A stretch of DNA of 64,000 nucleotides from Candidatus Hydrothermarchaeum profundi (GTDB lineage Archaea > Hydrothermarchaeota > Hydrothermarchaeia > Hydrothermarchaeales > Hydrothermarchaeaceae): contig MTMF02000009.1 of assembly GCA_002011125.2 (NCBI GenBank), forward strand, positions 1,270,989-1,334,988, written 5' to 3'. The position numbers and the translations under genes are program-made. Below are positions 45,956 to 62,702 of the stretch, one piece after another. Numbering within the stretch: position 1 is the first letter of the stretch; each line of letters begins with the position of its first letter. Below the pieces are notes generated by a model. The model worked only from the letters and a program-made list of their open reading frames with translations. It did not search any database and was not told the origin of the DNA.

Positions 45956-46213
45956 CTAAATTGGACAATATTTCTGTATAATCTCTTTTTTAAGCCTATA
46001 TGCGATATACCTGTCATACCGTCCTTCCATTACATTATAAATATATTCGCTTATATCATTCCATTCGCATTTACCATCGAAGGTTTTCTCAAACTCTTCT
46101 AGCAACCTACTGAGTAGGGATGTGTCAGATTCTTCACCGCATCTAAGTTGACGCTTTCTCATTTTTCTAACTGCACAATCATCTTTCAATGGTTCTTTCA
46201 AATATAAGTCCAT
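45956..46213 (-). CDS. small hypothetical protein downstream of pylD
   Basis: An 85-residue charged protein with four scattered cysteines and two predicted helices (SLLSRLLEEFEKTF and AYRLKKEIIQKY). It starts 76 bases after pylD on the same strand, so it could be the tail of the pyl transcript or have its own start (AT-rich TATA-like sequence lies before it). The stop is TAG. Its frame and that of the following small gene differ, so UAG read-through does not join them. Function unknown. Confidence 0.5.
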   Translation of the reverse strand: MDLYLKEPLKDDCAVRKMRKRQLRCGEESDTSLLSRLLEEFEKTFDGKCEWNDISEYIYNVMEGRYDRYIAYRLKKEIIQKYCPI

Positions 46214-46289: not shown

Positions 46290-47093
46290 TTAAAGGCTTG
46301 CGGATTTTACAGCCATAACAGCTACTCCGATCTGGAGGGGATCATGGATTAATCGGGTATCTAACTTTTCAATCCCTCTCTTGCTTACACCTAGAGGAAC
46401 TCCAGGAGCTGAAAGAACTGTTTCAGAGTTTATCCAGTCATCTTTTATAGTAGCTGGTGAGGCATTAATAATCAGATTAGTTTCTTTGATTGCTTCTTCT
46501 ATAGACCTATACGCTAATATTGATGGGCCCTCTAGCATTGATGCCTTAGAGAAATCCTTATCAACTAACAGGATTTTAGCCTTCTTTATCTTTAGATATC
46601 CTACTAGGCGTTTTCCTACCTTTCCTGCTCCTATAACCAAGACTTTTTTGCCTTGAAGTCCCCCTGCAGCTATTTCTAACGCAGTGGAATACCCTAGGGC
46701 CGTTGCATCGGCATTATCCACATATTTTCCGGATAGAATGTTTAGTGCAATAAAACGTAAATCATCAGCAATAAATAAAATGTTTGCGCCTCTGTCAATA
46801 GCTTCCTCTATTCCCGTGATATCTCTATTTTCAGTCACAAAGGATTCCATTCCTATATGAGATATGATTGAAGAAACAGCATAGCTAAATCCTGGGATCA
46901 CACCCTCTCCAAAAGTCATAGGTACAACACCAGCTATAGCGTTGTTTATATCAGGTTTTCTTTTTATATCCCCTTCTACTGCAGTAAAAGCCAATTCTCG
47001 TAAAGTACACTTTATTTTGTTCTTCAATTCTTTATCGTAATCGTTCAATCTTTGTGGGATACTCTTTACTATCTCTGAAGTCAATCTTGTCAT
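46290..47093 (-). CDS. pylD: pyrrolysine biosynthesis protein PylD
   Basis: A 267-residue dehydrogenase. It oxidises the dipeptide-like intermediate (3R)-3-methyl-D-ornithyl-N6-lysine, after which ring closure gives pyrrolysine. The Rossmann motif KVLVIGAGKVGKRLVGYL lies near residues 143-160. The N-terminal half has the PylD-typical GVVPMTFGEGVIPGFSYAV. Start overlaps the pylC stop by 4 bases (ATGA). It ends in TAA. It is the last pyl gene of the operon. Confidence 0.95.
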   Translation of the reverse strand: MTRLTSEIVKSIPQRLNDYDKELKNKIKCTLRELAFTAVEGDIKRKPDINNAIAGVVPMTFGEGVIPGFSYAVSSIISHIGMESFVTENRDITGIEEAIDRGANILFIADDLRFIALNILSGKYVDNADATALGYSTALEIAAGGLQGKKVLVIGAGKVGKRLVGYLKIKKAKILLVDKDFSKASMLEGPSILAYRSIEEAIKETNLIINASPATIKDDWINSETVLSAPGVPLGVSKRGIEKLDTRLIHDPLQIGVAVMAVKSASL

Positions 47094-48250
47094 TTTAAAT
47101 ACACCTCGGGATACGGATCTGAAAACTCTTTGATATCCAATTCGTTTATAATATTATCTAACACCTGATTTCTTTTTTCCCAAGTTTCTTCTAGGGACTT
47201 TTCTTTTACTATAAGGGTCGCGACCCATTTACCCCTACTACTCCTATAATTAGTAATCATTTCAAAAGAGCCAAAAAGACCCTTATGGATGCTTAAATTA
47301 TCAGCTGAAGCCATCAGATGCTCTCCTCCGACTTGGATGCATGATTTTGAAACAGTTATATGTTCATATAAGATTGCACTTTTTGGCGATGTCACCACCT
47401 TCGGGAGTGTATTGTTAGTAAACAAATTAACAAGAAGCTCTAACATATTTACACCACTTGAATGGTAAACGGCTGTCGGAGTTTGACTTGGAAGTCTAGC
47501 ATCGATTTCTATTACTTTTGGTTTTCCCTCCAATACTATAGCCTCAACATCTGTTATTCCTGTTAGATGTAATCCGTCAGCTATTTTTGTCCCTATTTTT
47601 TTGATCTTTTCTTCAATTGAAGAAGATAGAGTTAATGGAGCTAAAACTCTTTTACAGTCAAAATTTGAATCAAATTCTAGCATAGTACATAAAAGAGGGA
47701 CTCCCTCTCCCTCTTTTGCAATAATCTCTATAGATACTGAAGGCCCTTTAATGAATTCTTGAATAACCTTGTTCGATGAAGGGGATATTCTCCCTACCGT
47801 ATTCTGAAGTTGAGCTTTATTCCACACTATTGAGACATCCTGGCTTCCGCTAGAGTTTGATGGTTTAATTATTAATGGAAAATCTGCATTAGGATACAAT
47901 CGGGGTATTGGAATACCTATTTTCTCGAAAAACTTGTTAGAACGGATTTTAGAACTCGAGATGTAATATGAGTTTGTGTCATGTATAAGGGGAGTCCCCT
48001 TTGCGTCTTTAGTAATCTTTCTTAAAGTTGCCTTGTTTTCAGTTGCCGGCAGGATAACATCTGCGGTTCTATAAATCTTTTTTGCTTCTTTAGCATTCTT
48101 GGTTATATCTATTATATGGGTTTCATCTGCAAGACTTGCTGCAGGTACATCGGGATTTTTATCGATTAAAATACTTTCATAACCGGCTTTTTTTGATAAA
48201 TATACAGCTTCTAGTCCTTGGAGCTTCCCCCCTACTATGCATATCCTCAT
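47090..48250 (-). CDS. pylC: pyrrolysine biosynthesis protein PylC
   Basis: A 386-residue ATP-grasp ligase that joins 3-methyl-D-ornithine to the epsilon-amino group of lysine. N-terminal Rossmann-like segment CIVGGKLQGLEAVYLSKKAG, ATP-grasp core LIIKPSNSSGSQDVSIV near residue 125, and catalytic VIEIDARLPSQTPTAVY near 270. Length is slightly above the usual 360 or so. It overlaps pylB by 4 bases and pylD by 4 bases, so B, C and D are translationally coupled. Confidence 0.96.
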   Translation of the reverse strand: MRICIVGGKLQGLEAVYLSKKAGYESILIDKNPDVPAASLADETHIIDITKNAKEAKKIYRTADVILPATENKATLRKITKDAKGTPLIHDTNSYYISSSKIRSNKFFEKIGIPIPRLYPNADFPLIIKPSNSSGSQDVSIVWNKAQLQNTVGRISPSSNKVIQEFIKGPSVSIEIIAKEGEGVPLLCTMLEFDSNFDCKRVLAPLTLSSSIEEKIKKIGTKIADGLHLTGITDVEAIVLEGKPKVIEIDARLPSQTPTAVYHSSGVNMLELLVNLFTNNTLPKVVTSPKSAILYEHITVSKSCIQVGGEHLMASADNLSIHKGLFGSFEMITNYRSSRGKWVATLIVKEKSLEETWEKRNQVLDNIINELDIKEFSDPYPEVYLK

Positions 48251-49347
48251 GAAGACACCTTATGGGGCGAGAATTTCTTATATTTCTCTATCCATCTGAT
48301 ATAGTCTTTCACAGTTGCGCTCTTTAATTTGAGTTCTTTTAGATAGGGCTTTATCCCGTCAACCGTTCTTTTACCTATTCGGATATCTAAATCATGCTGA
48401 GCAACTCCTGCGAGGTCTCCTTGGGGGGGGATAATAGATGTAACTACATTAGCTCCAGCCATTAATCTGGCTTGAAGTCCGGCTACGCCTTCTATATCCA
48501 AGGAGGCGGGTATCAACTTGTCTTGATGTACGAGTCTCATTACAGCAATGGTAAGAAGCTCTTCTTCTCTGGGCGGAGTTCTCCAATTTTCCATAGGCGT
48601 TCCGATCTGAGGTATAAAACTCATAGCTCTTATCTGGTGGGCATTAATTTTTTTCATCTCACTAATTGAATATGCCCTATCTTTTAGCGATTCTCCGACT
48701 CCTAGAAGAATGCCCTCCTCTATCAGCATACCTTCCTTTACAGCTATTTCTTTAACTCTCATTCTAGTATCGTAGTCTTGATCGATTCTTAGCTTAGAGA
48801 ATAAATCTCTATTATGAGTTTCTTGGTAGCATGCGTACCAATCTGCTCCAGCCCTAGATAAGTCCCCAAGGATTTTATGAGGAACAACGCCTGGGGATAC
48901 CATTATAGGGATGTCAACTTCATTTCTAACTCTTTTGAGTAAATCCAGCAATTTTGAAAAATCTTGTCTACCGTGGATTAATGGATCTTCACTCATAGTA
49001 AGATCTATTAAATGGACTCCAGAATCTTCTAGGTCTTTTGCAATTTTTATTACTTCTTCCGGAGTTTTCCGGTATCTAGGGCTCTTTAAATTTGGTTTCC
49101 TATAAAAACAGAAAGTACATCTGTTACGGCAGTATGTTGTAAAGTATATGAAACCATAGAAAAAAATCTTGTTACCAAAGAATTTCTCTCTTATTCTTTT
49201 TGCTGCGGAAAAAACGCCTTCTATATCAACTGGATCCCTTAGCCCTAATAAATACTCAGTCTCTACTCTGGATAGAGTGTTTAGGTTTAAAGCTTTTTCT
49301 ACAATGCTCTCAGCCTTTTTATCATTAAATTCTAACTCATTGTTCAC
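48247..49347 (-). CDS. pylB: methylornithine synthase PylB (radical SAM)
   Basis: This radical SAM mutase turns lysine into (3R)-3-methyl-D-ornithine, the first step of pyrrolysine synthesis. The CxxxCxxC cluster site is CRNRCTFC, preceded by FIYFTTY as in known PylB. I favour the GTG at 49347, which follows GGAGA at good spacing and gives about 366 residues; a GTG at 49401 extends the frame by 18 residues but has its ribosome site too close. The pylSc gene ends 98 bases upstream of this start. Confidence 0.96.
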   Translation of the reverse strand: MNNELEFNDKKAESIVEKALNLNTLSRVETEYLLGLRDPVDIEGVFSAAKRIREKFFGNKIFFYGFIYFTTYCRNRCTFCFYRKPNLKSPRYRKTPEEVIKIAKDLEDSGVHLIDLTMSEDPLIHGRQDFSKLLDLLKRVRNEVDIPIMVSPGVVPHKILGDLSRAGADWYACYQETHNRDLFSKLRIDQDYDTRMRVKEIAVKEGMLIEEGILLGVGESLKDRAYSISEMKKINAHQIRAMSFIPQIGTPMENWRTPPREEELLTIAVMRLVHQDKLIPASLDIEGVAGLQARLMAGANVVTSIIPPQGDLAGVAQHDLDIRIGKRTVDGIKPYLKELKLKSATVKDYIRWIEKYKKFSPHKVSS

Positions 49348-49445
49348 GCGTATCTCTCCTATGTAAAACGCAATTCCGCATTTCTTTAAGTACTTTGTCA
49401 CTCCTGCAAAACAACCTCAAAGTATCCCTAAGAATCTTGTATTAT

Positions 49446-50279
49446 TTAAATTATATCGAGCCTCACGCAATCAAGGTAAATTAGACTTCTACCAATTTTC
49501 TTTATATTAGCGAAACCTTCCTTTGCCAAGATAATTCTCTCGATCCCAAAACCTATCCCTGCCCAGGGATCGTATATCCCCCAGTTTTTATCGAGCTCAT
49601 GAGGGCCTGCTACACCAGAGCCTATTTCTATACCTCTCGAATGCACATCAAGAGTTTTCCCATAACATTCAGCATCTTCATAAGAAAGCTCATATTCCAT
49701 CTCAAGGGCGTCCATAATCTTTGTTATCAACTCTTTTAAACGTTCTTCCGGATCTTTCTCGGGTGATAGTTCAACTAGGTTTAGCATGGTAAATTCCGGC
49801 AAATGGCGAGCTCCTTTGGACTCCTTACGGAAACATGGCCCAATCTCGAAAATCCTGATCGGTCTTGGCCATAATCTACCGAGATGCCCAAGTAGAAAAT
49901 AGAGGTTTGGAGCTAGCATAGGTCTCAGGCAGTGATCTCGATCAATCCAAAAGATTTGGTTCCAGAGATGGTCTCCCTCATGGATATTCATACGTTCTAG
50001 GAGTCCTCTACTTAAAATAATTGGAGTAACGACTTCCGTAAAACCTATCGATGTAAGTAAGGATACCAGTTTTGATTCAATTTTTCGTAGATCGGGTCTC
50101 TTTTTATAACTCCGAAGAAGTTCAAGTCTTTCCTTGTTTTTGGTTGTAAGCCTATAACTGATTTTCTTGAAAACCTCTTCCCTTTCCTCGCTTGATTTAA
50201 ATTTGAGTATAAGCTCTTCCTCTTCCAGCATTAGTTCTTTAAGCCGTTGTTTTTGAGCATCTGTAAAAGTTAAATCCAT
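49446..50279 (-). CDS. pylSc: pyrrolysyl-tRNA synthetase catalytic subunit (PylSc)
   Basis: A 277-residue class II synthetase that charges tRNA-Pyl with pyrrolysine. It equals the C-terminal catalytic half of Methanosarcina PylRS. It keeps MLAPNLY of the substrate pocket, motif 2 IFEIGPCFRKES and FTMLN with the gating Asn, the Tyr in ECYGKTLD, and motif 3 GFGIERI. The residue matching Cys348 of M. mazei is Val here (MLNLV). No tRNA-binding N-terminal domain is fused; that is the separate gene upstream. A GGAAGGGA ribosome site lies before the ATG. Confidence 0.97.
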   Translation of the reverse strand: MDLTFTDAQKQRLKELMLEEEELILKFKSSEEREEVFKKISYRLTTKNKERLELLRSYKKRPDLRKIESKLVSLLTSIGFTEVVTPIILSRGLLERMNIHEGDHLWNQIFWIDRDHCLRPMLAPNLYFLLGHLGRLWPRPIRIFEIGPCFRKESKGARHLPEFTMLNLVELSPEKDPEERLKELITKIMDALEMEYELSYEDAECYGKTLDVHSRGIEIGSGVAGPHELDKNWGIYDPWAGIGFGIERIILAKEGFANIKKIGRSLIYLDCVRLDII

Positions 50280-50294
50280 TTCTATGTCCCTTCC

Positions 50295-50579
50295 TTAGGA
50301 TTTCTTACCAGCAAATCTCTTCAACTTCCAATCAGGTATTTTGCATTTCTTGCAAGGAGTTATGTATCTTCTTTGCCGTAGCCATCTAGCCCTCCTACTA
50401 TTCTTCGAGTTCCTTCCTCTAGAGACAGCATTGCAGTGCGTTCTTACAATAATAAAAGATCCTCTTTCTTCGATTTCTTTAACTCCATGTAAAGTACCTT
50501 TTTTAGATACCCACAGATTTATTTTTTTTACAAGATCTAACAACGGAACACGTTTATCGAAAATATCTTTCTTGCTCAT
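50295..50579 (-). CDS. pylSn: PylSn, tRNA-Pyl-binding subunit of the split synthetase
   Basis: A 94-residue protein homologous to the N-terminal domain of Methanosarcina PylRS. It has LWVSKKGTLH, VRTHCNAVSRGRNSKNSRRAR and CKKCKIPDWKL. The His, Cys and CxxC residues match the zinc site that shapes the tRNA variable-loop reader. It is encoded apart from PylSc, with its own TAA stop and 15 bases between the genes. An upstream GTG at 50588 is the alternative start. The gene begins 16 bases after the tRNA-Pyl 3' end, so tRNA and mRNA are probably made as one transcript. Confidence 0.95.
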   Translation of the reverse strand: MSKKDIFDKRVPLLDLVKKINLWVSKKGTLHGVKEIEERGSFIIVRTHCNAVSRGRNSKNSRRARWLRQRRYITPCKKCKIPDWKLKRFAGKKS

Positions 50580-50595
50580 TTGAATCACATATTAG

Positions 50596-50664
50596 CGGAG
50601 GGCCCGAGAGTCGAACCCGGCTGCATGGAGTTAGAGTCCATGCGGTCTCCCCGACCTGCCCTCC
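50596..50664 (-). tRNA. pylT: tRNA-Pyl (anticodon CUA, amber decoding)
   Basis: A 69-base cloverleaf with all marks of tRNA-Pyl. The acceptor GGAGGGC pairs with GCCCTCC. One base joins acceptor and D stem; the D stem is GGTC/GACC with a 5-base loop. The anticodon stem is long (6 bases CATGGA/TCCATG, extendable to 7) around CTCTAAC with anticodon CTA at 50632-50634. The variable loop is 3 bases, the T stem is CCGGG/CTCGG and the discriminator is G. CCA is not encoded. It heads the pylSn-Sc-B-C-D operon. Confidence 0.97.
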
Positions 50665-50822: not shown

Positions 50823-51830
50823 ATGGATGTAGTGGATCGTTTTTTTAATGCACTTAAGGGTAAGGAGGTGGATAGGCCTCCGGTAACATGTGCTAATCAG
50901 ACGGCTACAGTTGAGCAGATGGAGAAAGTTGGAGTATTTTGGCCTGAAGCACATAAAGATGCAGAGAAAATGGCTGTTTTAGCAGCTCAGGCATGGGAGC
51001 AACTAGGGCTGGAGGTTGTTGGTGTTCCTTTTTGCCAGACAGTTGAGGCTGAGGTTTTGGGATGTGAAATTAAGTGGAGTGATAAGAAGGACGCTATTCC
51101 CAGCGTACCTTTCGAGGGTTATGCCAGTCCAGATGATGTCACGGTTCCTGAGAACCTTCTGGAACAAGGAAGGATTCCTGTAGTCTTTAAGGCTTTGGAG
51201 ATTTTGAGGGAGAAATATGGTGAGCAAGTGCCAATCATGGGCCACGTTAATGGGCCTTTTAGCCTTGCGTCACATCTTACAGATCCTAGCAAGATGATGA
51301 AACTTATTCTCACGAAGCCGGATGTTGTTCCAGAGTTCTGTCGTATTTCAGTAGATGTTATTTCAGAGTATGCTAATGCAATGTATGATCATGGAGCCGA
51401 TGTGGTAGTTATAGAGGATATGATCGCAAGCGTTGACCTATTAGGTCCAAAGTTTTATGAAGACTTTAGTTTTCCTTTTGAGAAAGAGCTTGCAAGCCGT
51501 CTCAAGGGACCATCGATTTTGCACATTTGTGGAAATGCTACTTCAGTATTAGACAACATGATCGCTACAGGTTCTGATGGTATTAGTATTGATAGTAAAG
51601 TTGATGCCAGTTTAGCGGTTGAAAAGAGTAGGGGAAAATGTGCGGTGCTAGGGAATGTAGATGCATTAGTATTACTAAATGGCACTGTAGATGAGATTCA
51701 AAAAGAGACGATGAAGTCGATTGAAGCCAATGTTGACCTCGTTGCGCCGGCTTGTGCGATTTCTCCTCTTAATAGTAATAAAAATATCAAAGCTATGGTG
51801 GACACCGTAGTTGAATATGGGGGTAAGTGA
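50823..51830 (+). CDS. mtbA: methylcobamide:coenzyme M methyltransferase (MtbA/MtaA family)
   Basis: A 335-residue UroD-fold enzyme that moves the methyl group from a methyl-corrinoid protein to coenzyme M. The zinc site HxC...C is present: HICGNA (His about 233, Cys about 235) and PACAI (Cys about 310). The N-terminus VDRFFNALKGKEVDRPPV is family-typical. MtbA (methylamine-specific) is preferred over MtaA because it is divergent from the pyl operon, but the sequence alone does not separate them. TATA-like element at 50779; ribosome site GGTGA close to the ATG. Cobalt uptake genes follow. Confidence 0.88.
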   Translation: MDVVDRFFNALKGKEVDRPPVTCANQTATVEQMEKVGVFWPEAHKDAEKMAVLAAQAWEQLGLEVVGVPFCQTVEAEVLGCEIKWSDKKDAIPSVPFEGYASPDDVTVPENLLEQGRIPVVFKALEILREKYGEQVPIMGHVNGPFSLASHLTDPSKMMKLILTKPDVVPEFCRISVDVISEYANAMYDHGADVVVIEDMIASVDLLGPKFYEDFSFPFEKELASRLKGPSILHICGNATSVLDNMIATGSDGISIDSKVDASLAVEKSRGKCAVLGNVDALVLLNGTVDEIQKETMKSIEANVDLVAPACAISPLNSNKNIKAMVDTVVEYGGK

Positions 51831-51986: not shown

Positions 51987-52670
51987 ATGCACATAATGGA
52001 AGGATTTTTACCGGGACCTTGGTGGTACTTGTGGTTCGTCTTCTCTGTACCAGTTGTCGGTTATGGGCTATGGAGAATGAAAAAGGTTGTTGAGGAGAAT
52101 CCTAATGTCAAAATATTACTTGCTTTAGCTGGCGCTTTTGTATTCGTGCTATCTTCGCTAAAACTTCCATCTGTTACAGGCTCTTGTTCACATCCCACGG
52201 GTACCGGGCTTAGTGTTATTCTATTCGGTCCGAGCGTAACAGCATTACTGTCAAGTATAGTACTTCTATATCAGGCTCTACTCCTTGCTCATGGAGGATT
52301 AACAACATGGGGCGCTAATGTTGCAAGTATGGGCATATTGGGGCCTCTCGTTGGCTGGTTAGTTTTTATTGCCTCTAGAAAAGTAAATCTAAATATGAAT
52401 CTAGCAGTATTCTTAACAGCTGCGGTCGCTGACCTAGCTACTTATGTAGTAACATCGATTCAACTAGCAGTCGCTTTTCCTGCAGCTACTGGAGGTGTAT
52501 TAACAAGTTTCAAGGCTTTTTTTGTAATCTTTGCTGTAACTCAAGTTCCTCTTGCGATAGTAGAGGGGCTTGTAACGGTAGTAATATTCAAATATCTTGT
52601 AGAATTACGAAGCGACCTTTTGGTGCATATGAATGTAATAAAACCAGCTGAGGAGGTGAGTACTGAGTGA
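51987..52670 (+). CDS. cbiM: cobalt ECF transporter substrate-binding component CbiM
   Basis: A 227-residue membrane protein with about 7 helices. It begins MHIMEGFLPGPWW; the N-terminal Met-His-Ile-Met motif supplies cobalt ligands (His2) after insertion into the membrane, so this start is fixed. KLPSVTGSCSHPTGTGLSVI is the second family motif. It binds Co2+ and hands it to the energising module CbiQ-CbiO. Its stop overlaps cbiN by 4 bases. Confidence 0.96.
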   Translation: MHIMEGFLPGPWWYLWFVFSVPVVGYGLWRMKKVVEENPNVKILLALAGAFVFVLSSLKLPSVTGSCSHPTGTGLSVILFGPSVTALLSSIVLLYQALLLAHGGLTTWGANVASMGILGPLVGWLVFIASRKVNLNMNLAVFLTAAVADLATYVVTSIQLAVAFPAATGGVLTSFKAFFVIFAVTQVPLAIVEGLVTVVIFKYLVELRSDLLVHMNVIKPAEEVSTE

Positions 52671-52954
52671 AGACTCCTATTATCTTTCTTCTTATACTCG
52701 TTGTTTTATTGGTACCTTTTATAATTAATGAGAATGCAGAATGGGGGGGCGCGGATGCTCAAGCAGAAGTAGCGATATCGGAGTTTACTGGGGGAACATA
52801 TGAGCCTTGGTTCAGTCCTATATGGGAGCCTCCTAGCGGGGAAATTGAAAGCCTTCTCTTTTCTCTACAAGCTGCACTGGGTGCAATTATAGTTGGATAC
52901 TTTATTGGGTACCATAAAGGTAAAAACTCAGTTGAAGAGGTTCAGGCGAGGTGA
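52667..52954 (+). CDS. cbiN: cobalt transporter small subunit CbiN
   Basis: A 95-residue protein with two membrane helices joined by an extracellular loop containing WGGADAQAEVAISEFTGG and a PWFSPIWEPPSGEIESLLFSLQA segment, typical for CbiN. It is needed by CbiM for cobalt loading. Start is a GTG overlapping the cbiM stop (GTGA). Confidence 0.94.
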   Translation: MKTPIIFLLILVVLLVPFIINENAEWGGADAQAEVAISEFTGGTYEPWFSPIWEPPSGEIESLLFSLQAALGAIIVGYFIGYHKGKNSVEEVQAR

Positions 52955-52961
52955 AAAATAG

Positions 52962-53753
52962 ATGCATGTACATCATCCCTTTGACATTTATACATACAAT
53001 AATGCCTTAAAAAGAGTACCTCCCCACTTTAAAGTATTAGTCTCTTTGGTTGCATTGCTTATAGTAGTAGCTTCTCCCTCCTTTGTGGCGCCTATCGCAA
53101 TTTTTGGTCTAATGTACTTTTTGACTGTGGTGAAGGCTAAGATCCCTAATAAAGTTTATCTAAAAGCGTTAACTGCTCCTTTGTTATTTACTATTCCCAC
53201 CCTCCCGCTTATGGCTTTCTTCTTTGGTGGGGGTGATGTATTATTCACAGTAAATATCTTGGGCTTTAGTCTTGCGGCTACTAGAGACGGGTTTAACTTA
53301 GCCCTCTTAGTTGCTTCACGGGTTATAGCGGGTAGTGCAAGCCTATTCTTCTTGGCTTTTACTACTCCTATGACTGAGATTTTTGGTGTAATGAGAGCCC
53401 TTAAATTCCCATCCCTTTTTGTCGAAATCGCTATGATGATATATCGATACATCTTCGTACTTATAGAAGAAGCAGAACAAATGATTTTTGCGCAAAATGT
53501 GAGACTCGGGTATAACACTTATAAGAGGAGTTATGAGTCTTTTGGACTATTAGTTAGCAATCTCTTTATAAGGTCTTGGCAGAAAGGTGAGCGAATTTTT
53601 AGAGCATTAGAAGCCCGGGGATATGAGGGGCAATTTGTTTTCTCTGATCAATCGCAACAAAAAATTACTTTTTTGCCTTTGTCTATATTGGGGGCTATAG
53701 GCATAGGTCTTGTTTTATTGGCGTACTACACTAGGGGGCTCACAATTTTTTAA
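52962..53753 (+). CDS. cbiQ: cobalt ECF transporter T component CbiQ
   Basis: A 263-residue transmembrane coupling protein of the ECF class. It has five or six helices and two coupling-helix Ala-Arg motifs, seen as ARG in LEARGYEG and the related AQNVRLGY. It joins CbiM to the ATPase CbiO. Spaced 7 bases from cbiN. Confidence 0.95.
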   Translation: MHVHHPFDIYTYNNALKRVPPHFKVLVSLVALLIVVASPSFVAPIAIFGLMYFLTVVKAKIPNKVYLKALTAPLLFTIPTLPLMAFFFGGGDVLFTVNILGFSLAATRDGFNLALLVASRVIAGSASLFFLAFTTPMTEIFGVMRALKFPSLFVEIAMMIYRYIFVLIEEAEQMIFAQNVRLGYNTYKRSYESFGLLVSNLFIRSWQKGERIFRALEARGYEGQFVFSDQSQQKITFLPLSILGAIGIGLVLLAYYTRGLTIF

Positions 53754-53763
53754 GGGATTGAAA

Positions 53764-55113
53764 ATGGAAGCTATTATAGCTACGAGATCACTGGACTACG
53801 TTTACCCAGATGGTACAAAGGCGTTGAAGGATATCAACGTTTCTATAGAGAGAGGGCTTAAAGTAGCTTTTATTGGTCCAAATGGAGCTGGGAAATCGAC
53901 TTTTCTGTTGCATCTCAATGGTATTTTAAGGCCTACTAGAGGGGAAGTTTTTATTGAGGGGAAGCCTCTAAAGTACGATAAGCAATCTTTAAAAAAGGTT
54001 AGGCAGAAGGTGGGTATGGTATTTCAAAACCCTGACGACCAACTATTCGCTCCTCAAGTATGGCAAGATGTGGCTTTTGGTCCGAGGAACATAGGGCTAC
54101 CTGAAAGTGAGGTAAGGGAAAGAGTTGACAAAGCATTGAAAATGGTTGGAATAGAACATCTCGCAGAGAAACCTCCTCATTTCTTGAGTGTAGGGCAAAA
54201 AAAGCGGGCAGCTATTGCTGGAATATTAGCTATGGATCCAGAGATCCTCGTATTAGACGAGCCTCTTAGCCATCTAGACCCTCAGGGTAGAAATGAACTT
54301 ATAGAAATCCTAGATGATCTAAGCTTCCTAGGTAAAACTATTCTCGTTGCAACTCATAGTGTAGAGTTCGCCTATTTTTGGGCGGATTACATATATGTAT
54401 TAATTTCTGGGACTATAAAATCTAGTGGAACTCCAGATGAAATTTTCAACGATTCAGAATTATTAAGTTCTGCCATGTTAGAGTCTCCAACACTTGTGGA
54501 GATTTATAATGAGCTTAAGGATAGAAAGTCGATATTAGGGAAAAAGACCCCAAAAAGCCGTCTTGACCTTATAAGCATGTTAGATGTGCCATTCTTAAAG
54601 TATATCGAGGCGCCTGAGGGAATAAGAGAAGGAGACACTGTGGAGCTAGCAATTGAAAATGGAAATCTTAAAATTCTTGGTGTGGCAGACTCTTCGTCAG
54701 ATAATAATTTAGGTGAAATAGTTGAGATAGTTAACGGAGAGTTAGCCGCTGTGAAAATACTGAGTCCAGGAGGTATAAAAAGAAGAGGAAAGATATTTAT
54801 CTGTAGTGTTGATTCCTTAGAAAAATCTAAGTTATTTGAGTTCCTAGATAATAATGATATTAAACATATAGGAGCAAAGGGTACCAGAGCGAAGCTATAT
54901 GCGCGTAGGGAAAATATACCTATGGATATTAAGAGAGATGTCATTAATGAAACAATGTTAAAAGCGCTTTCCGGTAAAAAGGTGCTACTGATTGTGAGTG
55001 ATGGAATGGTTGAAGCTACAAGAAAACTGTTAGAAGATTGTATAAAAGAGAATGGTTATGATCTCTCGATAGACATTCTTGCACGGGAATTAAAAGGGGA
55101 CCAGGTAGGCTAA
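53764..55113 (+). CDS. cbiO: cobalt ECF transporter ATPase CbiO with extra C-terminal domain
   Basis: A 449-residue protein from the ATG at 53764. Residues 1-240 are the ABC ATPase: Walker A GPNGAGKST, Q-loop VFQNPDDQLF, signature LSVGQKKRAAIAG and Walker B ILVLDEPLSHLD. Residues about 265-449 form an additional region not present in the usual 270-280 residue CbiO, with a beta-rich part (EGDTVELAIENGNLKILGV) and then an alpha/beta part (GKKVLLIVSDGMVEATRKLL). The extra domain may sense metal or corrinoid and control uptake; that is inference. Confidence 0.93.
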   Translation: MEAIIATRSLDYVYPDGTKALKDINVSIERGLKVAFIGPNGAGKSTFLLHLNGILRPTRGEVFIEGKPLKYDKQSLKKVRQKVGMVFQNPDDQLFAPQVWQDVAFGPRNIGLPESEVRERVDKALKMVGIEHLAEKPPHFLSVGQKKRAAIAGILAMDPEILVLDEPLSHLDPQGRNELIEILDDLSFLGKTILVATHSVEFAYFWADYIYVLISGTIKSSGTPDEIFNDSELLSSAMLESPTLVEIYNELKDRKSILGKKTPKSRLDLISMLDVPFLKYIEAPEGIREGDTVELAIENGNLKILGVADSSSDNNLGEIVEIVNGELAAVKILSPGGIKRRGKIFICSVDSLEKSKLFEFLDNNDIKHIGAKGTRAKLYARRENIPMDIKRDVINETMLKALSGKKVLLIVSDGMVEATRKLLEDCIKENGYDLSIDILARELKGDQVG

Positions 55114-56332: not shown

Positions 56333-56919
56333 AGGGAAAGGAAATAGAAGAAAAAAGCTTTGAGATTATAGAAGAGAGGCTTAAGAATTTTCCTTCGCCA
56401 GAGAGAGAGGTTATAAAAAGGATAGTTCATACCACCGCAGATTTTAGCTTAGCGGACTTAGTAGTGTTTCATAATGACCCAGTTCATAAAGGTATAGAGG
56501 CGATAAAGTCTAATAAGAGAATATTTACTGATGTGAGAATGGTCCAGGCAGGAATTACTCGGTACAAGGGTGAAGTAAAATGTCTCATCGATACTGAGGA
56601 GGTTAAATCATTTTCAGAGTCTTCTGGGAAAACTAGGGCAGCGTCAGCATTTCAGTTGGCTCGCGGAGAATTAGATGGAGCGATTATTGCAATAGGGAAT
56701 GCTCCAACAGCATTATTGGAAGTCTGCTCCCTTATTGAGGACGGTATTTCTCCTTCCCTTGTAGTTGGAACGCCGGTGGGGTTCGTAAGCGCCGAGGAAT
56801 CTAAAGAGAGAATATTACAATATGATGTTCCATCGATAGTGGTTAGAGGGAAGAGGGGGGGTAGCAATATCGCAGCAGCTATAATAAATGCGCTTATTAT
56901 TCTATCAGAGAAAGAATGA
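56329..56919 (+). CDS. cbiC: cobalt-precorrin-8 methylmutase CbiC
   Basis: A 196-residue enzyme that moves a methyl group from C-11 to C-12 to give cobyrinate. It carries the catalytic His in KRIVHTTADF (about residue 35), MVQAGI and GNAPTALLEV, and VGTPVGFVSAEESK near the C-terminus. Start is a TTG overlapping the NicO stop; its own stop overlaps cbiD. Confidence 0.95.
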   Translation: MKGKEIEEKSFEIIEERLKNFPSPEREVIKRIVHTTADFSLADLVVFHNDPVHKGIEAIKSNKRIFTDVRMVQAGITRYKGEVKCLIDTEEVKSFSESSGKTRAASAFQLARGELDGAIIAIGNAPTALLEVCSLIEDGISPSLVVGTPVGFVSAEESKERILQYDVPSIVVRGKRGGSNIAAAIINALIILSEKE

Positions 56920-58022
56920 AGCCGTATGTAATTAGAAAAGGTAAAGTCTTAAGAAGGGGTTTTACGACAGGAACGTATTCTGCCGCGGCAGCAAAGGCCG
57001 CAGTTAGCATGTTGTTTGGCGTCCCTATAGATACAGTAAAAGTAGAGTTACCTATTGGTGCAGAAGTTAAAATAAAGATTTCTAAAGCTTTTAAAGAAAA
57101 AGGCAAGGCTGTGTGTTGCGTCGTAAAAGATGCGGGAGATGACCCGGATGTTACTCATAAAGCAGAAATCTGTGTAAAAGCAAAAAAGATCAGTAAGGGC
57201 ATTGAATTAAAGGGAGGCGAGGGAGTAGGTATTGTCACTAAACCAGGATTACAAGTAAGGGTAGGAGAGCCTGCAATAAATCCAGTTCCAAGAAAAATGA
57301 TTTTTAATGAAATAAAGAAAGTATTGCCTAAAGGCGCTGGAGTTGAGGTTACAGTCTTTGTTCCTAAGGGCGAGGAGTTAGCTAAAAAAACAATGAACGA
57401 AAGGCTTGGGATAGTAGGGGGGATATCTATCCTTGGTACTACAGGTGTTGTGGAGCCTATGTCAGAAGAAGCATTTAAAGAATCATTAGTTCCTCAAATA
57501 GGCGTAGCGTTGGCTCAAGGATATAAAGAAGTAGTACTTACCCCTGGCCGAATAGGAGAAAAGAATGCTTTGAAGCTAGGTATACCGGAGGATGCTATAG
57601 TTCAAATGGGAAATTTCGTAGGCTTTATGCTTCGTGAATGTGCGAAGAGAGGAGTGGAGAAAGCCGTTCTTTTTGGGCATGTTGGAAAATTAACAAAAGT
57701 GGCAGCAGGATTTTTTAATACACATAGTAAGATCTCAGATTCGAGAATAGAGACTATAACGAGACATGCAATCAAGCTAGGTATAGAAGAAGATATTATA
57801 TGTATGGTAATGGATGCTAATACTGCTGAACATGCTCTTCAAATACTAAAGGATAAAAGTAAATTACATATTTTTGATTCTATAGCGGAAGAAGTGGTGA
57901 GAAAAGCAGTAGAATTCGCAGGAGGAAAAATGGAGATTGGTGCGGCGTTGCTTTCCTTGGATGGAGAGATTGTAGGGAAATATAACTTGGAGGCCTGTAG
58001 ATGGGGAAAATATATGTTATAG
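56916..58022 (+). CDS. cbiD: cobalt-precorrin-5B C1-methyltransferase CbiD
   Basis: A 368-residue enzyme that methylates C-1 of the contracted corrin ring. N-terminal RRGFTTGTYSAAAAKAA and middle VGGISILGTTGVVEPMS are family signatures. It is the only gene of the pyl/cobalamin locus here that ends in TAG. That stop is 22 bases inside cbiET, so read-through would only add a few residues. Confidence 0.96.
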   Translation: MKPYVIRKGKVLRRGFTTGTYSAAAAKAAVSMLFGVPIDTVKVELPIGAEVKIKISKAFKEKGKAVCCVVKDAGDDPDVTHKAEICVKAKKISKGIELKGGEGVGIVTKPGLQVRVGEPAINPVPRKMIFNEIKKVLPKGAGVEVTVFVPKGEELAKKTMNERLGIVGGISILGTTGVVEPMSEEAFKESLVPQIGVALAQGYKEVVLTPGRIGEKNALKLGIPEDAIVQMGNFVGFMLRECAKRGVEKAVLFGHVGKLTKVAAGFFNTHSKISDSRIETITRHAIKLGIEEDIICMVMDANTAEHALQILKDKSKLHIFDSIAEEVVRKAVEFAGGKMEIGAALLSLDGEIVGKYNLEACRWGKYML

Positions 58023-59185
58023 GTACTGGTCCCGGATCGATAGATTATTTAACTCCTGCAGCAAGGAAGGCGGTAGAAAAAGCAGATGTTATCGTTGGAG
58101 GAAAGAATGCCCTGTCTCTATTCTCCTTTAATAAGCCTAATAAATTCATAGATAAAGAACTGCGGAGTGTTCTTGAATATATTTCAGATAATAGGGAAAA
58201 AAATATAGCAGTCTTAACCTCTGGAGACCCAGGATTTTATAGTATACTCGGGCTTTTGACTAAGAATTTTCCTAGGGAAGATATAGAAGTCATACCTGGA
58301 ATTAGCTCGGTTCAACTGTGCTTCGCTAAGTTAAAGGATAGCTGGCATGATGCGAGATTCATTAGTCTCCATGGACGTAATATTGAAAATTTATTGACTA
58401 TCCATGGCGAAAAAATCGTGATTTTAACAGATGAAGCTTCAAAGCCAGAGAAAATCGCTCAATATCTATTGGATAGAGGGATTAAAGGTAGAGCGTGGGT
58501 ATGTGATAGTCTCTGTCAGTCATCTGAGCGCATTATAGAATCAGATTTAAGGGGGATATCAAGCAAGAAGTTTTCTGGAAATGCTATAATGGTAGTTAAA
58601 CCCTCTATAGAGCGAAAATGGAGGCATCGTACTCCGGGTATACCGGACAAGCTCTTTGAAAAAGGCGGGTCTCCGATGACTAAGGAAGAAGTAAGGGTGA
58701 TAACAATATCTAAAGCGAGAATTAATAGGGATAGCGTAGTATATGACATAGGATCGGGTACTGGTTCTATAGCGATTGAGGCCGCGATACAAGCTGATAT
58801 GGGAAAAGTATATTCTATCGAAAAAAACCCTGAAAGGTGTAAGATAATTATGAAGAATATTCTGGCGTTTGGGCTTCCAAATATCGAGGTTGTGCAGGGA
58901 GAAGCTCCAGAGGTTATAGAGAGCCTTTCACCGGCGGATAGGATTATAGTGGGGGGTAGTGGTGGAAAAATAAGAGAAATCATAGAGGCTAGTATTACTA
59001 AACTCAAGAGAGATGGCGTGATAGTAATAAATGCATTTAAAGAAGAAACGATTAAAGAATCAACGAAAACTCTGAAAGACTTAAATTTAAATTACAATAT
59101 TACTACTGTTTCGATAGAAAGAATTCGCGGTGGAAGCGTTGCTAAATTAAATCCAATTTCTATAATAGATGCAAGGAGGCAATGA
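58001..59185 (+). CDS. cbiET: CbiE-CbiT fusion: cobalt-precorrin C5/C15-methyltransferase (decarboxylating)
   Basis: A 394-residue fusion. Residues 1-200 are CbiE, a tetrapyrrole methylase with [19 protein letters not shown] and [11 protein letters not shown]. Residues 205-394 are CbiT, a Rossmann methyltransferase/decarboxylase with [16 protein letters not shown] and [13 protein letters not shown]. In many archaea CbiE and CbiT are separate; the fused form resembles bacterial CobL/CbiET. Overlaps cbiD by 22 bases. Confidence 0.94.
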
Positions 59186-59186
59186 A

Positions 59187-60245
59187 ATGAAGATAGAAGA
59201 TGTAGTTTCTAAGATTGGTCCCTTAAATGAAGAAGCTATGAAAAAAGCGAGGGATAGACAGGATAATCTCACAAAGCCTCAGGGAAGCCTAGGTAGACTT
59301 GAAGAGATATCCATTAGAATAGCAGGCGTCAAGGGTGAAGAAAGACCTAAAATTAAGAGAAAAGTGATCTTCACTGCGGCAGGAGACCATGGGGTAGTCG
59401 AAGAGGGAGTAAGTGCTTACCCCCAGGAAGTAACTCCGCAGATGGTTTTTAATTTCCTCTCAGGAGGAGCTGCGATAAATGTTTTGGCTAGACATGTTGG
59501 AGCGGATATTGTAGTAGTCGATATGGGTGTGGCATATGATTTTGAAGCTAATCCAAAACTGATAATTAAAAAAGTAGCTAAGGGCACTAAAAACATGGCT
59601 AAAGAGCCTGCGATGAGCAGAGAAGAAGCTATTAAAGCTATCGAAGGAGGGATAGAGGCTTTCGAAGAAGAATATACTAAAAATCCAATGGACATTATAG
59701 GTATAGGAGACATGGGCATAGGCAATACTACACCAAGTAGTGCTATTGCTGCCGTGATAACTGGAAAAAAGGTAAGCGAGGTAACAGGCAGAGGAACTGG
59801 AATCGATGACGAAGCACTTCAAAACAAAATAAGGGTAATTGAGAAGGCCATAGAAGTTAATAATCCTGACCCAAAAGATCCGCTAGACGTTCTCTCAAAG
59901 GTGGGCGGCTTTGAGATAGGAGGTTTGGCGGGTATCTGCCTAGCCGCTGCATCAAAGAGGGTGCCCGTCGTCATTGATGGTTTTATTGCGACTGCTGGAG
60001 CTTTAATTGCAGGAGAGATTGCACGTAAGGCACGTGATTACATGATAGCTGCGCATAAATCAGTAGAAATTGGGCATATTGCCATGCTGAATCACTTGGG
60101 GTTAACTCCGCTCATGGATCTCGATATGCGACTTGGAGAAGGTACAGGTGCGGCCCTCGGTATGTTTATAGTTGAAGCAAGTGTTAAAATACTGGACGAA
60201 ATGGCAACTTTCGCAGAGGCTGGAGTAAGCGAGAAGGAAAAGTGA
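59187..60245 (+). CDS. cobT: nicotinate-nucleotide--dimethylbenzimidazole phosphoribosyltransferase, bacterial type
   Basis: A 352-residue enzyme that activates the lower-ligand base by making its alpha-riboside phosphate. It has [12 protein letters not shown], the [15 protein letters not shown] segment, [16 protein letters not shown] and the catalytic Glu in [12 protein letters not shown]. These and the length match bacterial CobT rather than the shorter archaeal form. The start at 59187 follows AGGAGG; an earlier ATG at 59169 lies before the ribosome site. Sitting inside a cbi operon, it may have come from a bacterium. Confidence 0.94.
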
Positions 60246-60253
60246 TAGTTTAA

Positions 60254-60958
60254 ATGCCGGTAGGAAAACTTTATGGGGTAGGCCTTGGACCAGGAGACCC
60301 CAAGCTAATTACTATTAAAGCGAAGGAAATTTTAGAGGAGGTAGATGTAGTTTGTGCGCCTATATCGAAGGTAGGCAGGAGAAGCATTGCGCTAGAGATG
60401 GTTAAACCATACGTTAAGGGTAAAGAGATTTTAACTCTCCTGTTTCCAATGCACACCGACCCTGATATATTACGGCCTTATTGGGAGAAGGCAGGGGCTG
60501 AAATATGTAACAGGCTAAAAGAGGGGAAGGATGTAGCTTTTATTACTATAGGAGACCCCTCGTTTTATTCTACTTTTATTAATGTGATGGAAATAATAAG
60601 GGAAAGACAACGTGATGCAGAAATAATAACCATACCAGGGGTAGCTTCAATACTCGCGTGTTTCGCTGGTTTAAATGAGCCGCTCGTAGATAAGGATGAA
60701 AAACTCGCCGTCTTCCCTGCGGAATACGGCCTTGAGGAATTAGAAGAAATCTCAAAATTTTTTGATACAATAGTCCTAATGAAGGTTTCCAGGAGTTTTG
60801 ATAAGATTTATAAAAAACTTGATAAACTTGGACTCCTAGATAAAGCTGTATTAGTATCTAAGTGTGGTACACGAGATTTCTTTTCATCACCATTAAGAGA
60901 GGTAAAGGGAAAGGTGGATTTCCTATCCATGATCATTTTGAAGGGGTTAAGAGGATGA
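60254..60958 (+). CDS. cbiL: cobalt-precorrin-2 C20-methyltransferase CbiL
   Basis: A 234-residue tetrapyrrole methylase that uses S-adenosylmethionine to methylate C-20. It has the N-terminal GVGLGPGDPKLITIKAKEIL, FITIGDPSFYSTF near residue 96 and TIPGVASILACFAGL near 127. It overlaps cbiF by 4 bases. Confidence 0.95.
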   Translation: MPVGKLYGVGLGPGDPKLITIKAKEILEEVDVVCAPISKVGRRSIALEMVKPYVKGKEILTLLFPMHTDPDILRPYWEKAGAEICNRLKEGKDVAFITIGDPSFYSTFINVMEIIRERQRDAEIITIPGVASILACFAGLNEPLVDKDEKLAVFPAEYGLEELEEISKFFDTIVLMKVSRSFDKIYKKLDKLGLLDKAVLVSKCGTRDFFSSPLREVKGKVDFLSMIILKGLRG

Positions 60959-61707
60959 CAGTTTACATTGTCGGTGCAGGCCCGGGAGATCCGGAGCTTA
61001 TAACCCTCAAGGGTAAGAAGGTCATTGAAAAAGCAGACATTATAATCTATGCAGGATCGTTAGTAAATCAGAGGATTCTGGATTATGCAAGAACAGACGC
61101 AGAACGCTATAACAGTGCAGGTATGACTCTTGAAGAAATCCTCAAGGTAATATCGGAGGGTGTGAAAGAAGGAAAGTCGGTTGTACGTATCCATAGCGGC
61201 GACCCCAGTATATATGGAGCTATAGGAGAACAAATCCGAAGACTGGATGAGCTGGGCATCCAGTACGAGATAATTCCAGGGGTAAGCTCATTTTTAGCTG
61301 CAGCCGCCTCGCTTAAAAAAGAATATACCCTGCCGGGAGTTTCGCAGACCGTGATTATCACTAGGATGGGGGGGAGAACCAAGGTACCTAAAAAAGAAAG
61401 TTTGGGGGATTTAGCGAAACACCGGGCTAGTATGTGTATTTTCTTAAGTGCACAACTCGTTGAGAAGGTTACGGAGGAGTTAAAGAAAGGATATCCTGGA
61501 GATACTCCCGTTGCCGTAGTATATAAAGCCTCATGGGATGATGAGAAAATTATAATGACTAATCTCCAAGAGCTACCTAAAGCCGTTAAAGAATCGGGTA
61601 TAACTCGGACCGCTTTGATATTAATCGGAGAATTCCTACATACAATTGGGGAGGACTCAAAGCTTTATCATAAGGACTTTGAGCATGGTTATAGGAGGAA
61701 GAAATGA
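60955..61707 (+). CDS. cbiF: cobalt-precorrin-4 C11-methyltransferase CbiF
   Basis: A 250-residue tetrapyrrole methylase from the ATG at 60955 that overlaps the cbiL stop. VYIVGAGPGDPELITLKGKK at the start, ADIIIYAGSLVNQ near 36, VRIHSGDPSIYGA near 78 and the ITRMGGRTKVP motif near 137 are all specific for CbiF/CobM. Its stop overlaps cbiG. Confidence 0.96.
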   Translation: MTVYIVGAGPGDPELITLKGKKVIEKADIIIYAGSLVNQRILDYARTDAERYNSAGMTLEEILKVISEGVKEGKSVVRIHSGDPSIYGAIGEQIRRLDELGIQYEIIPGVSSFLAAAASLKKEYTLPGVSQTVIITRMGGRTKVPKKESLGDLAKHRASMCIFLSAQLVEKVTEELKKGYPGDTPVAVVYKASWDDEKIIMTNLQELPKAVKESGITRTALILIGEFLHTIGEDSKLYHKDFEHGYRRKK

Positions 61708-62702
61708 AGATTGCGGTCTTATCTATAACGAAGGGAGGTAAAAAAACAGCGGAAAGGGTTTCTTCTGCTTTACAGGAGCACAATGTCGAATTATTGGAGC
61801 CCTCCTCTATTAGCAGGGAGGTGGCACGAATATTCGGCAAGTATGATGCCCTCGTGTTTGTTATGGCTACGGGAATCGTAGTTAGAGCTATATCTAGACA
61901 TATTAAAGATAAGAGAACGGATCCTGCTGTGGTTGTGTTAGATGAGAAAGGAAAATTTGTAATCAGTCTCCTTTCAGGACATCTAGGAGGAGCAAATGAA
62001 TTAGCGAGACATATAGCAGAAAAATTGAATGCTGTACCTGTGATTACTACCGCTACCGACGTACTTGGACTCCCTTCGGTAGAGGAGATAGCTAAAGGTA
62101 ATGATCTTGAGATTGAAGACTATGTAGATGTGAAAAAAGTAAATGCTGCAATTGTTAATGGAAAAAAAGTTGGTATTGCGACCGATCTATCTTCACTTTC
62201 TAATCTCTCAGATAGATTCCCATTAATAAGACTACAAGATGTTGGCAATACGGATTTGGATGTATTGATTGTAATCACAAACAAAAAAATAGACATAGAG
62301 AAACCATGTGTTTTTTTGAGACCAAAGAATCTAATCGTTGGTATAGGCGCAAGAAGGGGTATAAGTAAAGAGAAGGTATTAGCGGCAATACACAGGGCAT
62401 TTGATCAAGGTAAGTTGAGTATCCATAGTCTGAAGGCTGTATGTACTCCAGAGTTTAAAGCTAAAGAGAAGGGAATCATAGAAGCATCTTTAGAGCTGGG
62501 AGTGCCCTTGATAAAAGTTTCGATTGATGAGATAAAAAGTGTGGAGGATCTTTTTGAGGCATCAGAATTTGTTGCGAGTAAAGTAGGATTAAGGGCGGTA
62601 AGTGAACCTTGTGCTATGTTAGGAGGGAAGTCGGCTAAGTTGATAAGGAAAAAAATGAAATCTAATGGTGTTACTGTAGCGGTAGCGGAGGAAGAACTGT
62701 GA
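61704..62702 (+). CDS. cbiG: cobalt-precorrin-5A hydrolase CbiG
   Basis: A 332-residue enzyme that opens the delta-lactone of cobalt-precorrin-5A and releases acetaldehyde. It has the CbiG core FVMATGIVVRAISRHIKDK, VISLLSGHLGGANELARHIA, and the C-terminal domain VGIGARRGISKEKVLAAI. Full length. Overlaps cbiF and cbiH by 4 bases each. Confidence 0.96.
   Translation: MKIAVLSITKGGKKTAERVSSALQEHNVELLEPSSISREVARIFGKYDALVFVMATGIVVRAISRHIKDKRTDPAVVVLDEKGKFVISLLSGHLGGANELARHIAEKLNAVPVITTATDVLGLPSVEEIAKGNDLEIEDYVDVKKVNAAIVNGKKVGIATDLSSLSNLSDRFPLIRLQDVGNTDLDVLIVITNKKIDIEKPCVFLRPKNLIVGIGARRGISKEKVLAAIHRAFDQGKLSIHSLKAVCTPEFKAKEKGIIEASLELGVPLIKVSIDEIKSVEDLFEASEFVASKVGLRAVSEPCAMLGGKSAKLIRKKMKSNGVTVAVAEEEL

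Follow-up and report, generated by a model that had tools for sequence, protein, structure and literature searches.

Pyrrolysine is the 22nd amino acid. A run of genes for it in Candidatus Hydrothermarchaeum profundi, a deep-sea archaeon, raises the question of whether they form a working system, whether the synthetase is truly encoded as two proteins, and where such an arrangement in an archaeon came from. The window (the whole stretch of DNA that was analysed, 64,000 nucleotides) belongs to a genome of 2.19 Mb that is 97.65% complete. The MAG JdFR-18 of this organism has been described as 2.06 Mb, 96.8% complete and of 39.1% GC, with others at about 50% GC (PMC6775978). On the minus strand, positions 46290-50664 hold tRNA-Pyl(CUA), pylSn, pylSc, pylB, pylC and pylD in the order T-Sn-Sc-B-C-D.

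50595-50664, minus strand: pylT, tRNA-Pyl with anticodon CUA, called by ARAGORN (mature part to G73, 50596-50664)
50295-50588, minus strand: pylSn, the separate N-terminal tRNA-binding domain (TIGR03912, PylS_Nterm, 97.4 bits against a cut-off of 51)
50280-50297, minus strand: stop TAA and the 15-base spacer GGAAGGGACATAGAA, which contains a possible ribosome-binding sequence; the frame is that of pylSn and pylSc
49446-50279, minus strand: pylSc, the pyrrolysyl-tRNA synthetase catalytic domain, 277 aa (TIGR02367, PylS_Cterm, 294.6 bits against 178)
48247-49401, minus strand: pylB, methylornithine synthase, a radical SAM enzyme (TIGR03910, 452 bits against 348)
47090-48250, minus strand: pylC, 3-methylornithine-lysine ligase, an ATP-grasp enzyme (TIGR03909, 380 bits against 248)
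46290-47093, minus strand: pylD, 3-methylornithyl-lysine dehydrogenase (TIGR03911, 222 bits against 150; also PylD_N of Pfam)

In a profile search of the window, all five Pyl proteins exceeded the curated NCBIfam equivalog cut-offs. The components of a pylTSBCD operon (a CUA tRNA-Pyl, PylS, PylB, PylC and PylD) are thus all present and adjacent, with 4-base overlaps between pylB and pylC and between pylC and pylD, and the complete archaeal operon described in the first-pass annotation is confirmed. Scans for sigma-70 promoters and terminators gave no more matches than chance. Directly 3' of pylD lies a possible 85-aa ORF (45956-46213, minus strand) that matches no family. As read from its sequence, the operon is highly likely to be a working pyrrolysine-coding system of the archaeal PylSn+PylSc class in a non-methanogen, in which UAG would be read in methylamine methyltransferase genes.

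The tRNA has G73, a 3-base variable loop (CAG), a 5-base D-loop, one base between the acceptor and D stems and an unbroken anticodon stem. These include the features expected with N-domain enzymes, among them G73 and an anticodon stem of 6 bases or longer. The cloverleaf is also its minimum-free-energy fold (z -3.4). CCA is not encoded, as is also the case for the tRNA-Pyl genes of JdFR-19/B74 and Hecatella; it is encoded in the bacterial and Methanosarcina-type genes compared wherever the sequence is complete, those of L060 and L053 lying at a contig end.

The division of the synthetase lies in a short junction, TAA GGA AGG GAC ATA GAA ATG, and the reading frame is common to both genes. For PylSn, the start codon may be GTG 50588 (97 aa) or ATG 50579 (94 aa); the protein matches the M. 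mazei N-terminal domain structure 5ud5 (1.8e-12), keeps the His, Cys and CxxC pattern, and ends with its TAA at the usual C-terminus, the ATG of pylSc following 15 bases further. The N and C domains are thus encoded separately, as in the PylSn+PylSc class, and the TAA between them interrupts what in the fused class is one open frame of about 410-550 aa. The split that had been proposed for this synthetase therefore stands, with separate genes, a stop in between and each protein over its cut-off. In related genomes with split pairs in the same order, the locus comparison found 27-73 bases between the two genes, and a stop in each case. In the fused Methanosarcina-type proteins compared, 147-378 bases (49-126 codons) separate the aligned domains and no stop intervenes.

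Among solved structures, those of D. hafniense PylSc are nearest to PylSc itself (3dsq and 2zni, E about 1e-79). Thermincola has the most identical sequence, at about 55-56%, and none of those compared is closer; the identity to M. mazei is 38% by alignment to a possibly inexact M. mazei sequence. Viral contigs searched with PylSc yielded no relatives. In the pocket, alignment confirmed the residues given by the first-pass annotation, namely Val at the Cys348 position with the Asn gate (Asn346) and the pocket Tyr (Tyr384) kept. The candidate reading of a distinctive substrate pocket was rejected, as Val348 is the majority state. Of 65 non-redundant bacterial PylSc sequences, 56 have it, as does every archaeal PylSc compared except those of the Methanosarcina type and of JdFR-19/B74.

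The locus can be placed against four known kinds of system. It resembles that of the Methanomicrobia archaeon JdFR-19 in its separate PylSn and PylSc, adjacent tRNA-Sn-Sc and CCA-less tRNA; here, however, pylBCD come straight after, while the pylB of JdFR-19 lies on the same contig at a distance of about 46 kb, and Val takes the place of the Ala found there at the Cys348 site. With the bacterial type (Desulfitobacterium hafniense; Thermincola, Natroniella, Actinomycetota) it shares the split enzyme, and several bacteria even have T-Sn-Sc-B-C-D, but the bacterial tRNA genes compared encode CCA and many bacteria carry pylSn after pylD. The fused Methanosarcina-type enzyme has the same two domains and, except for Cys348, the same pocket residues, but as one protein with the long linker. 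The N-less PylS of Methanomassiliicoccales and of Hecatella orcuttiae JdFR-11 likewise has a separate catalytic domain and Val at the Cys348 site, while no PylSn was found at the locus there.

A split synthetase in an archaeon had been called a rare arrangement, yet the class is already published: seven genomes, with Ca. Hydrothermarchaeum profundi and JdFR-19 among the named examples (Guo et al. 2022, as relayed in PMC9499178). The earlier report very probably came from the same organism. Two archaeal enzymes of this kind have also been found elsewhere (PMC7615293). Across the 23 genomes of the phylum that were examined (one class), PylSc and PylSn exceeded their cut-offs in this one only. 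PylSc was present in 103 genomes of JdFR-19's class; of these, only JdFR-19 and B74_G9 have it unfused and at full length, a few others being fragments or interrupted. In the class of a Bathyarchaeon that also carries the pair, 3 of 257 genomes have PylSc. Few archaea have the split form, but it had been described before. Similarly, the tRNA does lie directly ahead of pylSn, as described, but the rarity claimed for this order does not hold, since JdFR-19, B74_G9, the Bathyarchaeon and several bacteria share tRNA, pylSn and pylSc in succession. The Bathyarchaeon and bacteria such as Thermincola and Actinomycetota also continue with pylB. In Bathyarchaeota bin796 (genome G023, locus L107), T-Sn-Sc-B is present, tblastn gave no PylC or PylD in the vicinity, and MtmB-family matches lie in many broken pieces across the genome.

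Could the split be an error, with the organism making a fused PylSn-PylSc? The first-pass annotation had named a sequencing error between 50279 and 50295 as something that would refute the split. As the genes share a frame, such an error would have to be an altered base in the TAA and not a frameshift; an assembly frameshift was rejected on this ground and on the normal end of PylSn. A single base change would indeed join the genes, but the joined protein would have only about six codons between its domains, against 49-126 in the fused proteins. Furthermore, the C-terminus of PylSn agrees with that of other stand-alone PylSn proteins, and after the TAA come a purine-rich stretch that may serve in ribosome binding and then an ATG. 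The same-frame arrangement with an intervening TAA recurs at three Bacillota loci (L028, L029, L031), and reviews state that H. profundi has a separate PylSn (PMC9499178). An artefact is thus extremely improbable, and the split is taken as genuine; it is typical of split genomes. Another explanation is that PylSn is dispensable and that PylSc acts alone, like the N-less archaeal enzymes. D. hafniense PylSc is, according to reviews, active in vivo without PylSn (PMC11764691). Here, however, PylSn is intact, with its His/Cys/CxxC pattern kept, and has been retained between pylT and pylSc, so that its dispensability appears unlikely.

The origin of the operon was approached through trees. The first-pass annotation had asked for phylogenies, and the PylSc tree and a comparison of ten tRNAs were run. 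The former left the sequence as a lone deep branch without placing it; the latter found the nearest tRNA-Pyl in JdFR-19 (85.5%). In a tree of PylSc, PylB and PylC the operon falls near bacteria with the same gene order and outside any bacterial clade; it joins Methanomassiliicoccus, JdFR-19/B74 and Hecatella, with support (94/97) that narrowly misses the starred level. The AU test, in which, as in this tree, the row L034_B is a mislabelled duplicate of the archaeal Hecatella, did not reject a single archaeal clade (p 0.205). Recent acquisition from a bacterium would explain the split and the bacterial-type gene order; the greatest identity of PylSc being to Thermincola (56%), the lack of PylSc and PylSn in the other phylum genomes examined and the weak depletion of UAG all speak for it. 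It is nevertheless disfavoured as quite unlikely by the CCA-less tRNA, shared with JdFR-19 and Hecatella and unlike the bacterial genes compared, and by the three-gene tree, which places the operon with non-Methanosarcina archaea. The nearness of the tRNA to that of JdFR-19, the lone deep branch of PylSc and the cluster GC of 38.5%, matching 39.8% for the window, also stand against it. The three-gene tree fits, but does not prove, the published proposal that the split form came early and was fused later in Methanosarcinaceae. A bolder proposal, namely that PylSn, PylSc and the tRNA represent a deep independent archaeal lineage keeping the ancestral two-gene PylRS, the source of the Methanosarcina fusion and the N-less enzymes, and that the pair forms a further orthogonality class, is tentative and on balance somewhat doubtful.

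Turning back to the working pyrrolysine system, its probable targets are found in the same genome. The genes for MtmB, MttB and two MtbB proteins are there, and a single in-frame TAG is the sole interruption in each. The contexts in the three families (MAV-O-GPETP, VDGI-O-MGVGD and VAGT-O-ADSKIPD) are known pyrrolysine contexts, so that TAG stands at the conserved methylamine methyltransferase site. Near these genes lie MtbC-type corrinoid proteins, RamA (791 bits) and an Amt-family transporter. A second MtmB-family protein, without a stop, has Val at the pyrrolysine site (C9:1059694-1061034, minus strand; loci L026 and L175). Such non-Pyl MtmB homologues are many in Hecatella and present in JdFR-19, and one, MtqB, demethylates tetramethylammonium and choline (PMC13044021). 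Beside the operon, the opposite strand adds the following genes, the other flank holding Mrp-type antiporter genes.

50823-51830, plus strand: methylcobamide:CoM methyltransferase of MtaA/MtbA type, divergent from pylT (MtaA/CmuA subfamily, 324 bits against a cut-off of 235)
51987-55113, plus strand: cobalt ECF transporter, CbiM, (CbiN-like), CbiQ and CbiO (NCBIfam)
56916-62702, plus strand: cobamide biosynthesis, CbiD, CbiE/CbiT, CobT and CbiG, close to the pyl operon

The methyltransferase reaches neither the MtaA nor the MtbA equivalog cut-off, and the 95-aa ORF at 52667-52954 is labelled CbiN-like solely from its position. The nearness of the cobamide genes would suit corrinoid-dependent methyl transfer.

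These genes suggest the following route. PylB, PylC and PylD would convert lysine to pyrrolysine, and PylSc would charge tRNA-Pyl with it, probably helped by PylSn, a protein of its own that would bind the tRNA. If expressed, the charged tRNA would read UAG in the mono-, di- and trimethylamine methyltransferase genes. Methyl groups would then pass to the corrinoid proteins and on to the methylcobamide:CoM methyltransferase. No match to McrA (PF02249) was found in the genome, and methanogenesis was rejected on this ground; JdFR-18 has likewise been described with methylamine-type methyltransferases and no mcr (PMC6775978). Because methyl-CoM reductase is missing, the methyl groups would probably enter an H4MPT-linked oxidative pathway, and the system likely serves methylamine demethylation into a non-methanogenic C1 pathway.

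UAG as a stop is not strongly depleted in the genome. TAG terminates about 17% of ORFs of at least 120 aa in a 204-kb sample that includes the window, against 32% in a Pyl-less, GC-richer relative (GC 40% here, 51% there). Elsewhere, UAG makes up 21% of stops in Sifarchaeia and less than 6% in other Pyl archaea (PMC9723677). With UAG ending such a share of ORFs, the cell must be able to tolerate pyrrolysine decoding at many of its ordinary stops. At least four genes would have UAG read as pyrrolysine, yet ordinary UAG stops are somehow spared.

None of the implications of this locus is new in kind, as the system is already in the literature. Mutually orthogonal PylRS pairs have been sought below an identity threshold (PMC7615293), and PylSc, with about 55% identity at most, is close to that threshold and therefore a reasonable candidate for genetic code expansion; its source may be a warm subsurface archaeon. 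The relevance to PylRS evolution that had been suggested is borne out. A split enzyme in a non-methanogenic archaeon outside the Methanosarcina line helps to examine whether PylRS began as two genes that were fused later.
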